A stretch of DNA of 64,000 bases, taken from the NCBI GenBank assembly GCA_013298025.1, contig JAAFJE010000005.1, positions 124,001 through 188,000 of the forward strand, written 5' to 3'. The notes beneath the pieces are model-generated. The model had not been told where the DNA came from. It ran no database searches and worked only from the letters and a program-made list of their open reading frames with translations. How positions within the stretch are numbered: the first letter of the stretch is position 1; every line of letters starts with the position of its first letter. The DNA comes from Cytophagales bacterium (GTDB lineage Bacteria; Bacteroidota; Bacteroidia; Cytophagales; Spirosomataceae). Shown piece by piece: positions 3,581 to 34,326 of this stretch. A program made the translations under genes and the position numbers.

Positions 3581-4945
3581 ATGAAACCATACGAAAAATA
3601 TAAAGACAGTGGCGTTGAATGGATTGGCGAAATCCCTGAGCATTGGGTTGTATCAAAAATTCGTTATTGTTCAACAAGTGTAAAAACGGGTAAGACTCCA
3701 CCAACTGAAAACGAATCATACTTTGAAGAAGGGCAAATTAACTGGTTTGGTCCTGGAGATTTCAAAACTCTATTTTTAAGGGACTCTTCTAGAACAATAA
3801 CAGAAAAAGCAGTCAATGAATTAAAATTAGAGCTATATCCCGAAGGGACAGTTTTACTGATAGGGATAGGAGCTACATTGGGTAAAGTTGGAATAATAAA
3901 TGCTCCAAGCTATTCCAATCAACAGGTGAATGCTATTATTTTTAATAGCTACATCAATCCTCAGTATGGTTTGTTTTTCCTTGATGTGTTTAAAGAAATA
4001 ACAGCTAACGAAGCCAGTTCATCTACGATGGCTATCTTAAATCAGTCAAAAACTAAGGACTTACTTTTATTAAAACCCACACTCCAAGAACAAACCGCCA
4101 TAGCCAAATACCTCGACCACCAAACGGCTATCATTGATGAATTGATTGAGAAAAAGACCAAACAAATCGCTTTACTCAAAGAAAAACGCCAAGCCATCAT
4201 CAACGAAACCGTAACCAAAGGCTTAGACCCAACTGCCAAAATGAAGGATAGTGGAGTTGACGGGGGCGACCATCGCTGGTTGGGAGAGATTCCTGAGAGT
4301 TGGGAAATAACTCCATTAAAGCACCTTGCTACATTAAAAGGAAGGTTGGGGTGGAAAGGGCTTAAAGCAGATGAATATGTTCCAGAGGGATTTGGCTTTT
4401 TATCTACACCAGATATTAAAGGAGATACAATTGACTTTAATTCAATAAATTATATTACAGAAGAACGTTATCTTGAATCTCCTGAAATTATGTTAGAGGT
4501 TGGAGATGTTCTTTTGGTAAAAGATGGTTCAACTTTAGGAATAACTAATATTATTAAAGAATTACCTATTCCATCAACAGTAAATTCTTCAATTGCTGTG
4601 ATAAGGATAAATGATACCAAAAAACTTCTTCCTGAGTATTTATTAGCACTTTTAAGTTCAAATGCCTTACAAACGGTAGTTAATAAGTTAAAAGCAGGTC
4701 AGGGTGTTCCTCATTTATTTCAAAAGGATATAAAAAACTTTTTAATTTTGATTCCTGCTTTGGGAGAACAGAAGAAAATTATCGAATATATTGACGGTTT
4801 AAAAGAAAAAGTAAACACTATCATAAGAAGAAGTGAGTTACAAATCGAAAAGCTCAAAGAATACCGTCAATCGCTTATATCGGAGGCGGTTACGGGCAAG
4901 ATAGATGTACGAGGGTGGGTAGCAACAATACAACCAAAATTATAA
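3581..4945 (+). CDS. hsdS: Type I restriction-modification specificity subunit (HsdS)
   Basis: HsdS recognises the bipartite DNA target and bridges HsdM and HsdR. The protein is a tandem duplication. Two target-recognition domains each open with a KDSGV...GEIPE.W signature (near residues 7-20 and 225-250). Each is followed by a helical spacer: EQTAIAKYLDHQTAIIDELI with a KTKQIALLKEKRQAII helix, and later EQKKIIEYIDGLKEKV. I chose the ATG at 3581 because MKPYEKYKDSGVEWIGEIPE is the usual beginning; the 20 codons upstream belong to the DUF1016 tail in another frame. The two recognition domains are visibly more AT-rich than the spacers, consistent with domain exchange. The stop overlaps the next start (TAATG). 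Confidence 0.95.
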   Translation: MKPYEKYKDSGVEWIGEIPEHWVVSKIRYCSTSVKTGKTPPTENESYFEEGQINWFGPGDFKTLFLRDSSRTITEKAVNELKLELYPEGTVLLIGIGATLGKVGIINAPSYSNQQVNAIIFNSYINPQYGLFFLDVFKEITANEASSSTMAILNQSKTKDLLLLKPTLQEQTAIAKYLDHQTAIIDELIEKKTKQIALLKEKRQAIINETVTKGLDPTAKMKDSGVDGGDHRWLGEIPESWEITPLKHLATLKGRLGWKGLKADEYVPEGFGFLSTPDIKGDTIDFNSINYITEERYLESPEIMLEVGDVLLVKDGSTLGITNIIKELPIPSTVNSSIAVIRINDTKKLLPEYLLALLSSNALQTVVNKLKAGQGVPHLFQKDIKNFLILIPALGEQKKIIEYIDGLKEKVNTIIRRSELQIEKLKEYRQSLISEAVTGKIDVRGWVATIQPKL

Positions 4946-31980: not shown

Positions 31981-32011
31981 TTTGTCAAGTTATTTTTTCA
32001 AACTAACTTTG
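31981..32011 (+). promoter_or_regulatory. Promoter of the tyrosine leader and operon
   Basis: TTTG (31981-31984), a 19-base spacer and TAACTTTG (32004-32011) match the Bacteroidota TTTG / TAnnTTTG promoter exactly. The predicted transcription start falls at about 32015, at or one base before the leader ATG. Confidence 0.75.
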
Positions 32012-32015
32012 AGCC

Positions 32016-32075
32016 ATGAATCAGACAATCAATACATACCGTGCTTATTATTACTACTATGCTTTGCCAGTATAG
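32016..32075 (+). CDS. Tyrosine-rich leader peptide (MNQTINTYRAYYYYYALPV)
   Basis: A 19-codon open frame with six Tyr codons, five of them consecutive (codons 11-15), starts right behind a consensus promoter and ends at TAG 32073-32075. The first base after the stop begins an RNA arm that can pair with the 5' arm of the downstream terminator. The genes that follow encode an aminotransferase and prephenate dehydrogenase, the last two steps to tyrosine. By analogy with known ribosome-mediated attenuators (trp, pheA, his leaders), stalling at Tyr codons when Tyr-tRNA is scarce would allow read-through. The peptide itself probably has no other function. No Shine-Dalgarno sequence is present. Confidence 0.85.
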   Translation: MNQTINTYRAYYYYYALPV

Positions 32076-32158
32076 GTCGGTTGTGTTATGTCTGTTAGGA
32101 TAAAGAAATCAAGAAAATAATCATACACAAACCGACTCATTGGGTCGGTTTTTTTTTT
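32076..32158 (+). promoter_or_regulatory. Tyrosine attenuator: antiterminator and terminator
   Basis: Segment 2, GTCGGTTGTGT (32076-32086), begins immediately after the leader stop codon. It is complementary to segment 3, ACACAAACCGAC (32125-32136), with one bulged base. Segment 3 contains AACCGAC (32130-32136), which instead pairs with segment 4, GTCGGTT (32144-32150), followed by ten T (32149-32158), a classic intrinsic terminator. The two pairings exclude each other. A ribosome at the leader stop would mask segment 2 and favour termination; one stalled at the Tyr run would leave it free. The mechanism is inferred from the geometry. Confidence 0.85.
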
Positions 32159-32216: not shown

Positions 32217-33392
32217 ATGATTATAAAACCTGCGTCCCGAATGAATTTGGTGCAAGAGTATTACTTCTCTACCAAATTGAAGCAAATTGCCGATATGCGT
32301 GCCAGTGGTATAGATGTCTTAAACCTCGGTATTGGGAGTCCCGACTTGCCTCCTTCTGCCGAAACAATCGATGCCCTAACCGACGCTGCGGCCCATCCGA
32401 AGCACCATGCCTACCAAAGTTATGTGGGCATTCCGGCACTTCGTGAGGCTTTTGCCCAATTTTATCAGCAGTATTATCATGTTTCGCTTAATCCTGTCAA
32501 CGAAATTTTACCACTCATTGGCTCTAAAGAAGGCATTATGCACATTGCTATGGCCTACTTGGAGGCAGGCGACGAAGTGCTAGTGCCTAATCCGGGCTAC
32601 CCAACTTATCGTGCGGCATCGTTACTTACGGGAGCTACAGTTGTAGAATATGAATTATTGGAAGAAAAAGGCTGGTTGCCCGATTTGAAGGCCTTGGCAA
32701 AAAGAGATTTGAGCAAAGTAAAATTGATGTGGGTCAATTATCCGCACATGCCAACGGGGGCAAAGGCTACTACGGCTTTCTTTGAAGAATTGCGTGATTT
32801 TGCTGTAGCACATCAAATTTTATTGGTCAATGACAATCCTTATAGCTTTATTCTCAATCCTGAGCCACAAAGTATGTTGGCGGTAGAAGGCATGAAAGAA
32901 GTAGCCATTGAACTCAATTCGTTATCGAAATCGCATAACATGGCTGGCTGGCGTATGGGGGTGCTGGTGGGTAAAGCCGATTATATCAATCCTGTGTTGC
33001 GTTTCAAGTCGAATATGGATTCGGGGATGTTTTTGCCTTTACAAATGGCGGCCGTGAAAGCCTTACAAAACCCAACGGCTTGGTTTGAAGCACTCAACCA
33101 AGTGTATAAAGTGCGTCAGCAAAAGGTATTTGAAATTATGGAAGTGCTGGGTTGCCAATACGACCCCCAGCAAACAGGTATGTTTGTATGGGCGAAAGTC
33201 CCCGAAACGGTCGCTTCGGGTTTTGCTTTAGCCGACGAAGTATTAGAACAATCGGCGGTATTTATTACGCCGGGTGGTATTTTCGGTTCGGCAGGCGAGC
33301 GTTATGTGCGTATTTCGCTTTGTGCCGAAGTAGCTGTTTTTGAAACGGCGATTCAGCGTATCAAGCAGTCGTACATTCCTGTTGTTTTGTAA
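32217..33392 (+). CDS. PLP-dependent aminotransferase, class I (probable aromatic/tyrosine aminotransferase)
   Basis: A 391-residue fold-type I aminotransferase: LNLGIGSPDLPPSAETIDAL, YQSYVGIPALREAFAQFY, VLVPNPGYPTYRAA, WVNYPHMPTGA, and the PLP lysine in ELNSLSKSHNMAGWRMG. On sequence alone the substrate is open (the LL-diaminopimelate and aromatic groups look alike). Its place between a Tyr attenuator and prephenate dehydrogenase argues for transamination of 4-hydroxyphenylpyruvate to tyrosine. The ATG at 32217 is preferred over 32196. It is 58 bases past the attenuator terminator and 85 bases before tyrA. Confidence 0.9.
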   Translation: MIIKPASRMNLVQEYYFSTKLKQIADMRASGIDVLNLGIGSPDLPPSAETIDALTDAAAHPKHHAYQSYVGIPALREAFAQFYQQYYHVSLNPVNEILPLIGSKEGIMHIAMAYLEAGDEVLVPNPGYPTYRAASLLTGATVVEYELLEEKGWLPDLKALAKRDLSKVKLMWVNYPHMPTGAKATTAFFEELRDFAVAHQILLVNDNPYSFILNPEPQSMLAVEGMKEVAIELNSLSKSHNMAGWRMGVLVGKADYINPVLRFKSNMDSGMFLPLQMAAVKALQNPTAWFEALNQVYKVRQQKVFEIMEVLGCQYDPQQTGMFVWAKVPETVASGFALADEVLEQSAVFITPGGIFGSAGERYVRISLCAEVAVFETAIQRIKQSYIPVVL

Positions 33393-33477
33393 TCATTCGA
33401 GATGGTAGCTTTTGGCTCAGAAATGAGAAAGCTAAAAGCTGCCATTGTTTCAGCGTATTTTCACAACTTTTCATTGT

Positions 33478-34326
33478 ATGGTTATTTCAGTTGTAGGCTT
33501 AGGACTCATCGGTGGCTCGATGGCCTTGGGTCTTAAAGAAAGTGGTTTTGCCGATACCGTTATTGGGGTCGATAATAAAACCGAACACGTGATAAAAGCC
33601 CTTGAACTACAGTTGGTTGACAAAGTGGCTTTGCTCGGCGATGCCATCAAGCAATCCGACATTATTATACTGGCGGTGCCTGTAGATGCTCTTGTGAGTT
33701 TATTACCACAAGTCCTCGATGACATCTTGCCTCATCAAGTAGTCATAGAAGTGGGTTCTACCAAGAAAAAAGTGGTAGATGCTGTAGTAACGCATCCAAA
33801 CAGAGCCAATTTTGTGGCAACGCACCCCATGGCAGGAACAGAATTTTCTGGGCCGGAAGCTGCTATCAGGCATTTGTTCGATCATAAAACTTGTGTGCTT
33901 TGCGATGTAGAGCAATCGAATCCTGATTTGGTAGCATTGATTGAAAAAATGTATGTAGAGGGGCTACAAATGCGTTTGAAATACCTCGACTCAACCGCCC
34001 ACGATATTCATACGGCGTATATTTCGCATATTTCGCATATTTGCTCGTTTGCTTTGGCGGCTACGGTTTTGGAGAAAGAAAAAGACGAAGATAGTATTTT
34101 TAATTTGGCAAGTTCGGGTTTTGAATCAACGGTGCGTTTGGCAAAATCGAACCCTGATACGTGGATTCCTATTTTCAGACAAAACCAAGAAAATATCATT
34201 GATGTGCTAGACGAATACATCAATACGCTTTTGAAGTTTAAGGGCTTGATGCTTGCCGATGGCTACGATAAGTTTAGAGAGTATTTGGTACAAGCCAACG
34301 ACATCAAACGCATCCTGAATAAATAA
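33478..34326 (+). CDS. tyrA: Prephenate dehydrogenase
   Basis: NAD(P)-dependent oxidative decarboxylation of prephenate to 4-hydroxyphenylpyruvate, the committed step to tyrosine. A Rossmann motif opens the protein (ISVVGLGLIGGSMALGLKESG). The family signature FVATHPMAGTEFSGPEAA is near residue 120, and the C-terminal helical dimerisation domain contains SHISHICSFALAATV and FESTVRLAKSNPDTW. The length of 282 suits a monofunctional TyrA without chorismate mutase or ACT domain, so feedback control may rest on the attenuator. The ATG at 33478 is selected because family proteins start just before the Rossmann strand. Confidence 0.94.
   Translation: MVISVVGLGLIGGSMALGLKESGFADTVIGVDNKTEHVIKALELQLVDKVALLGDAIKQSDIIILAVPVDALVSLLPQVLDDILPHQVVIEVGSTKKKVVDAVVTHPNRANFVATHPMAGTEFSGPEAAIRHLFDHKTCVLCDVEQSNPDLVALIEKMYVEGLQMRLKYLDSTAHDIHTAYISHISHICSFALAATVLEKEKDEDSIFNLASSGFESTVRLAKSNPDTWIPIFRQNQENIIDVLDEYINTLLKFKGLMLADGYDKFREYLVQANDIKRILNK

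Follow-up and report, generated by a model that had tools for sequence, protein, structure and literature searches.

The 64,000-nucleotide stretch of Cytophagales bacterium DNA analysed here (the window) carries, ahead of an aminotransferase gene and tyrA, a short open reading frame (ORF) rich in tyrosine (Tyr) codons. Judged from its sequence, this ORF is very likely (probability roughly 0.88) the leader of a ribosome-mediated transcription attenuator of the trp/pheA type, tuned to Tyr-tRNA. It reads ATG AAT CAG ACA ATC AAT ACA TAC CGT GCT TAT TAT TAC TAC TAT GCT TTG CCA GTA TAG, and re-reading of the codons bears out the initial annotation, which had claimed a 19-codon leader with six Tyr codons, five of them consecutive. 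The run is thus one of codons for the product of the operon, and an intrinsic terminator lies between the leader and the first gene. The ORF and its conservation, the pairing arms and their matching within each genome, the geometry, the promoter pattern and the operon are all read directly from the DNA and from comparison across genomes. When both strands of the 64-kb window were scanned for short ORFs that have a terminator and five or more identical residues within 7 codons, this leader and an ORF overlapping it in another frame were the only ones found; a further ORF of that scan held 4 Ile in 7 codons.

Four arms can be drawn in the region (Table 1). The initial annotation had described an arm whose first base directly follows the stop codon and which is complementary to a downstream segment, and sequence and coordinates agree (GTCGGTTGTGT at 32076-32086 and ACACAAACCGAC at 32125-32136). 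It had also paired the downstream segment with GTCGGTT (32144-32150), which stands, and had placed ten T after the latter, which does not, as the run of ten includes the last two bases of GTCGGTT and leaves eight T after 32150. In the terminator scan the hairpin spans 32129-32151, with a stem of 10 bp and a 3-base loop. The 2:3 and 3:4 pairings, both built on arm 3, are mutually exclusive. Absent from the annotation was arm 1, which lies inside the ORF and pairs with arm 2 and its 3' extension (32078-32087 and 32089-32094), making the classic four-arm layout complete. The folding energy of the 150-nucleotide (nt) region is -34.1 kcal/mol, where shuffled versions average -24.6 (z -2.5) and 4 of 200 do as well. 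With arm 2 shuffled, the 2:3 energy is reached in 1.4% of 500 cases, while the 1:2 energy is reached by 1.0% of codon shuffles and 1.3% of arm 2 shuffles (of 300).

From this layout we infer translation of the leader, stalling, termination and a response to tyrosine. Transcription would start at or next to the leader ATG, and the leader would probably be translated from a leaderless RNA. With Tyr-tRNA scarce, a ribosome stalled on codons 11-15 would cover arm 1 and leave arm 2 free to pair with arm 3; the 3:4 terminator would be blocked and RNA polymerase would read into the aminotransferase gene and tyrA. With ample Tyr-tRNA, the ribosome would reach the stop codon and cover arm 2, which starts at the next base, leaving arm 3 to pair with arm 4 and transcription to end at the U tract. 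In RNA that is not translated, arm 1 would hold arm 2 and termination would be the default.

The statement of the initial annotation that the downstream genes make tyrosine agrees with the profile matches of both genes, aminotransferase and prephenate dehydrogenase. The best NCBIfam models of the aminotransferase are LL-diaminopimelate aminotransferase-like, with scores below their cut-offs; its position adjoining tyrA suggests an aromatic aminotransferase. The listed tyrA ORF begins with TTG at 33445, the likely ATG start being at 33478. The operon of the window contains tyrA and no pheA.

Table 1. Features of the putative attenuator and its operon, in window coordinates.
Feature	Position	Strand	Basis or description
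Bacteroidota sigma-A-type promoter: TTG (31982-31984), 19 nt, TAACTTTG (TAnnTTTG box, 32004-32011)	31982..32011	+	Pattern and position
Leader ORF, MNQTINTYRAYYYYYALPV and stop	32016..32075	+	19 codons, Tyr at codon 8 and codons 11-15
Arm 1 (32031-32036 and 32038-32041, with 32022-32027)	32022..32041	+	Minimum-free-energy and centroid fold, duplex, shuffles
Arm 2, antiterminator 5' arm	32076..32087	+	First base after stop codon
Arm 3	32125..32138	+	Pairs with arm 2 (32125-32136) or arm 4 (32129-32138)
Arm 4, terminator 3' arm	32142..32151	+	Terminator scan
T run, intrinsic terminator	32149..32158	+	Sequence
Aminotransferase class I/II (Aminotran_1_2), first structural gene	32217..33392	+	Domain/profile match
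tyrA, prephenate dehydrogenase	33445..34326	+	NF006307, 347.9 bits, cut-off 295

Conservation was assessed through a contig scan for the related aminotransferase, from which the best 80 of 580 loci were taken. The 24 nearest (L002-L025) belong to Flectobacillus, Arcicella, Pseudarcicella, Siphonobacter, Aquirufa, Sandaracinomonas, a metagenome-assembled genome (MAG) called Spirosoma fluviale and other MAGs; together with the window they make up the 25 Tyr leaders referred to below. A Tyr-rich leader precedes the aminotransferase at 24/24 of these loci. In a second sample of 61 family genomes, with species overlapping the first, all 18 genomes whose aminotransferase is at least 66% identical carry one: the own genome, 13 with leader peptides of the first set and four with new peptides (L155, L159, L161, L163). 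The conserved Tyr-codon run to which the initial annotation had looked for support is therefore present in both samples. The run takes the forms YYYYY, YYYY, YYYAGYY, YYSYY and YRYYY across the nearest loci, and neither the length nor the sequence of the DNA between leader and gene is constant, which leaves the coding for Tyr as the conserved element. An intrinsic terminator is present at all 25 loci by arm analysis and hand reading of the sequences, the automatic picks having been wrong for L012, L015 and L021 in the shuffle test and for L016 in the swap and ribosome-state tests. In 20 of the 24 nearest loci tyrA follows the aminotransferase; the contig ends in L003 and L009.

If ORF and terminator were all there was to see, they could equally be taken for the gene of a small Tyr-rich protein with an ordinary terminator, having nothing to do with the downstream genes, or for an ORF arisen by chance. 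Such an origin is highly improbable, given the constant position ahead of the aminotransferase at the nearest loci, arms 2 and 3 that are matched genome by genome, and the standing of the leader as the sole run-of-five candidate in 64 kb apart from its other-frame overlap.

A natural contrast exists inside the family, among members with a distant aminotransferase, which mostly are without a Tyr leader. At 11 of the 12 such loci fetched (50-55% identity, L165-L176) no ORF with at least 6 aromatic residues in 10 codons was found within 600 nt, L165 having one weak match with a TTG start. The remainder of the family sample comprises 17 further genomes with a distant aminotransferase and 14 with matches of 49% or less only.

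The arms show how the attenuator reading fares beyond the window. The last Tyr codon begins 13-19 nt ahead of arm 2 in 25/25 Tyr leaders. In a swap test on 14 representatives of the 25, arms 2 and 3 of the same leader pair with a mean of -15.4 kcal/mol against -12.6 when permuted, and 2 of 5000 permutations were as good. The 3:4 stem is paired in 90/90 cells across nine close sequences, with both sides changed in 3 of 10 pairs and a covariation score reached by 1 of 500 shuffles; for the 2:3 stem of the same nine, 92.9% of 99 cells are paired. In L155 one position is altered jointly in arms 2, 3 and 4. The covarying arms 2, 3 and 4 that the initial annotation had named as a check in relatives are thus borne out for the 3:4 stem and by the 2:3 swap test, 2:3 being thin in the nearest nine. 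Its proposal of a trp/pheA-type geometry tuned to Tyr gains support from the conserved run, the matched arms and the spacing of Tyr codons to arm 2.

The alternative folds were also followed with a simple ribosome model in which RNA becomes available for pairing 12 nt beyond the A site. RNA free up to the end of arm 3 has a mean energy of -14.4 kcal/mol with the ribosome on the Tyr run vs -2.4 kcal/mol with the ribosome at the stop codon, and the stalled state is at least 4 kcal/mol more stable in 26/26 cases (the 25 Tyr leaders and L076, a distant Tyr-only locus described below). With no ribosome on it, the full-length RNA mostly adopts the terminator (mean probability 0.91). Folding and arm tests together give the mutually exclusive 2:3 pairing, with arm 2 covered at the stop codon, that is required of an antiterminator, more weakly in some relatives.

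Several results speak against such a switch, or against its presence in every relative. Some foreign arm pairs outbind the own pair, for example window arm 2 with arm 3 of L016, the swap result being one of means. In the nearest nine sequences, 2:3 covariation amounts to one double change among 11 pairs. The 2:3 energy does not fall under 5% of shuffles for L010 (8.2%), L018 (8.0%) and L076 (33%), nor for L012, L015 and L021, whose terminators had been picked wrongly. Only 10 of the 25 leaders have a 1:2 pairing that is better than both shuffle controls at 5% (window, L002, L004, L005, L010, L011, L012, L016, L017, L024); the other 15 Tyr leaders do not pass both, L006-L009 and L018 clearly not. 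At equilibrium, the full-length RNA in the stalled state retains a mean terminator-stem probability of 0.43, with values above 0.8 in 9 of the 25 Tyr leaders (L003, L005-L009, L011, L018, L022) and in L076, and L022 has a higher terminator probability when stalled than with the ribosome at the stop codon. Since the terminator often wins at equilibrium even when the ribosome is stalled, the switch must rely on 2:3 forming before arm 4 is synthesised. Finally, L006 and L008 hold the aminotransferase alone, without tyrA, followed by unrelated opposite-strand genes (5171 onward), and keep the Tyr leader.

Control of the terminator by a riboswitch or T-box instead of a leader peptide is another reading to be weighed, a terminator upstream of an amino acid gene being typical of these elements as well. 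It is very improbable, as neither the window region nor the leaders at 11 tested loci match any Rfam family at its gathering score, and as what is conserved across genera is Tyr coding capacity while arm sequence changes. With no Rfam match at any leader of these 12 sources, the T-box and riboswitch candidates were rejected, and it follows that annotation of such operons would miss how they are regulated. A SAM riboswitch (RF00162) on the minus strand of L076 (2717-2816) was the sole match to Rfam in the 11 loci.

The signal to which a real attenuator responds could also be broader than tyrosine, namely general aromatic or translation stress. The leader of aroR in Corynebacterium glutamicum contains Phe-Tyr-Phe and reportedly responds to Phe but not Tyr (PMC11802643), and leaders of the wider family mix Phe, Tyr and Trp. 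Against this, Phe is nearly absent from the Tyr run even though TAY to TTY is a single base change: 13 Phe stand against 148 Tyr codons over the 25 leaders, none of which has a linked pheA (8% Phe), and 10 of the 13 sit ahead of the run, leaving 3 within it. The window operon, moreover, carries tyrA without pheA. A broader signal is accordingly rated as unlikely, and tuning to Tyr-tRNA stays the preferred reading.

Upstream of the leader, the TTG-N19-TAACTTTG promoter pattern ends 4 nt ahead of the ATG. The pattern occurs 8 times on the plus strand and 14 times on the minus strand of the 64 kb. In Flavobacterium psychrophilum the TAnnTTTG box is reported to span -12 to -5 relative to the start site (PMC9723704), which places the predicted start at about 32016, the A of the leader ATG. 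Among the Tyr leaders, 20 of 25 have the full pattern 4-5 nt ahead of the ATG, while L010, L011, L016, L018 and L022 differ. Promoter position thus predicts a leaderless leader transcript. This would be unusual for the phylum, since leaderless mRNAs are put at 5.5% in F. psychrophilum (PMC9723704) and 5' untranslated regions of less than 10 nt at about 3.7% in Bacteroides thetaiotaomicron. Leaderless leader ORFs are described for trpL of Sinorhizobium meliloti (PMC10117765) and ilvB of Corynebacterium diphtheriae (PMC5784534). Translation initiation in Bacteroidota is reported not to rely on Shine-Dalgarno sequences (PMC9723704), and the predicted leaderless leader shows how attenuation may work in such a phylum.

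The S. meliloti case also raises the option that the terminated leader RNA or the peptide acts in trans as well, like rnTrpL/peTrpL. A leaderless leader ORF within a terminated RNA is the anatomy of rnTrpL, which is read from the first RNA base (PMC10117765); that system concerns Trp in alphaproteobacteria, where trans action is described. Residues outside the Tyr run vary between genera, which argues against a function of this kind in the window, and we give it a small though real chance as an addition to attenuation in cis.

Aromatic leaders form a family that is widespread in Bacteroidia, and the window leader represents its Tyr-only branch. A leader of the family is defined here by at least 6 aromatic residues in 10 codons, a terminator, a position upstream of pheA, the aminotransferase gene or tyrA, and an arm 2 matched to arm 3. 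The window leader, with 6 aromatic residues by this rule and its terminator, falls within the definition, and some of the nearest relatives score 5 (e.g. L003, L004, L009, L013). In Chitinophaga, Hymenobacter, Saprospiraceae and others, a pheA-aminotransferase-tyrA operon occurs, often followed by aroF; that of Chitinophaga continues with aroB and aroA (by similarity to ORFs of L048). Ahead of pheA stand short ORFs, for example MIQQTTFGYFYGFYFFWYQE and then, some 150 nt further along, MLQRFSLYFFYFFFYFFYVVKAGTLL, each with a terminator after it. There are 44 loci with pheA upstream of the aminotransferase. Where at least 400 nt of upstream sequence was available, a leader is present in 41/41 and two in series in 32/41; of the three loci with a short upstream region, two have a leader. 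The tandem loci are L032, L048, L057, L066 and 28 others between L027 and L077, each leader with its own terminator. The TAnnTTTG box within 45 nt is missing for 31 of 32 second leaders and 8 of 32 first leaders, and the lack of an own box in most second leaders fits one transcript running through both.

Loci without pheA upstream in L026-L081 have a leader by strict criteria in 1 of 12 cases (L076, Tyr-only); L069 and L074 have a GTG-start Phe/Tyr ORF that failed the strict terminator test. As a control, the reverse strand of the 80 loci gave 5 matches at 6 or more aromatic residues and 0 at 8 or more, compared with 63 at 8 or more on the forward strand, where one match of 6 aromatic residues is located elsewhere (L005). 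Arm matching holds throughout this family: 0 of 5000 permutations were as good for first leaders (12 representatives of 34), second leaders (12 of 34, 11 after dropping L027b, which has no strict terminator) and others (24 of 38). Arm pairing is weak in L116a, L116b and L068b.

The extent of the family was further gauged from 148 genomes of the phylum, 128 of which have a pheA match. Apart from the own genome, 32 come from its class or order; the pheA region of every one was taken, and 28 of the 32 have a leader (at least 6 aromatic residues in 10 codons plus a T run, no more than 360 nt ahead of pheA). A hairpin search on 21 of these 28 found one in each, poor in L116. The other four of the 32 (L117, L118, L134 and L146) have none. 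For pheA loci of other classes, 0 of 28 fetched have an aromatic leader with a T run, L094 having one ORF without a T run.

Three further sets of leaders were noted alongside. Six pheA-aroF operons in which no aminotransferase or tyrA match was seen (L120, L127, L130, L135, L139, L143) have leaders with 24 Phe, 27 Tyr and 3 Trp in all. In L045 (292-342) and L049 (240-290), pheA lies more than 2 kb from the aminotransferase and has its own Phe-rich leader, MTISNTFFYFSFYFFG, with 12 Phe and 4 Tyr in the two. L076, a Lentimicrobium MAG and thus a distant lineage, carries MASASNNMYYYAYYYLN... at 3824-3904 ahead of aminotransferase-tyrA-aroF-aroA without pheA; this leader is Tyr-only, with weak 2:3 pairing.

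Leader codons appear, on the strength of such sequence comparison, to follow operon content, i.e. the aromatic amino acid that the downstream genes make: the leader is almost purely Tyr where pheA is not linked and 40-75% Phe, by group, where it is. The pheA of the own genome stands apart as a gene by itself; from its length and sequence we take it to be a chorismate mutase-prephenate dehydratase fusion, and no Phe leader was seen at it. Among 29 further family pheA loci, 600 nt upstream were without a leader except for one weak match at 6 or more aromatic residues (L186; TTG start, 564 nt upstream of pheA, scattered aromatics). Upstream of trpE the own genome has a Trp leader, MKQTIKNTAWWWQLTNLG (Trp-Trp-Trp; L084, minus strand, 2102-2158), followed by a terminator-like hairpin and T run ahead of trpE, which makes it a second attenuator candidate in the same genome. 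It came to light, as did the leader in L113, when both strands were scanned. No His leader was found on the coding strand at hisG, and plasmid copies gave no match.

Most simply, these bacteria would use attenuation as a matter of course, with the leader codons following the operon. A fuller history, on balance favoured, is that of a class-wide attenuator family, often two in series, in which pheA left the operon, selection rewrote a mixed Phe/Tyr leader to Tyr-only and the promoter moved so that the leader became leaderless. The direction from mixed to Tyr-only is one that we infer from the distribution. If true, the window would hold the first tyrosine-specific attenuator together with a natural record of attenuator codon retuning. 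The comparison also yields a testable rule, that leader codons follow operon genes. It provides a large collection of tandem leaders as well, whose two successive terminators may integrate the supply of Phe and Tyr.

Most known regulation by tyrosine works through repressors, TyrR among them, and through T-boxes. The arm anatomy found here is that of the Escherichia coli trp and pheA (pheL) attenuators, in which a leader ORF with codons for the product, arms pairing as 1:2, 2:3 and 3:4, and an intrinsic terminator precede the first gene. The window differs in having Tyr rather than Trp or Phe codons, a predicted leaderless start and an arm 2 directly after the stop codon. The leader of C. glutamicum aroR, reportedly the work of Neshat 2014, was considered as a model and rejected, as the window leader is without Phe and no aroF, the mark of a DAHP synthase operon, was found among the window ORFs listed up to 38500. 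Both have a leader peptide before an aromatic pathway gene, aroF in that case; the aroR leader reportedly answers Phe and not Tyr (PMC11802643), whereas the run of the window is Tyr only and its operon aminotransferase-tyrA. The codon logic of the E. coli trp and pheL leaders is set out in PMC11802643 and PMC1183508. The Salmonella mgtCBR tandem attenuators, described as a singular example, resemble the pheA-aminotransferase-tyrA relatives in having two short ORFs in series; they sense ATP and proline, whereas both members of the Bacteroidia pairs have aromatic codons and the window has a single leader (PMC3641672).

Within the phylum, a 2021 transcriptome of F. psychrophilum offered clues for leader-peptide attenuation of amino acid operons, and a conserved structured 5' element without Rfam match is reported before pheA and hisG in Flavobacteriaceae (PMC9723704). 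The pheA element probably belongs in one family with the pheA leaders found here; the window leader differs from it in being Tyr-only and in standing ahead of aminotransferase-tyrA. The initial annotation knew of no such Tyr leader in the phylum. This holds insofar as no description of a Tyr-only leader peptide was found in the literature searched, outside which a 2010 comparative attenuation study may hold Bacteroidetes predictions, and is tempered by the leader-peptide attenuation already suggested in F. psychrophilum (PMC9723704). The kind of attenuation is therefore known, and a Tyr-only leader ahead of aminotransferase-tyrA is new as far as the literature searched extends.

The operon is flanked by genes of other kinds. 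Upstream of the leader, on the opposite strand, lies a gene that we take to be glycine dehydrogenase-like, and the ORF after tyrA presumably resembles a DEAD-box helicase.
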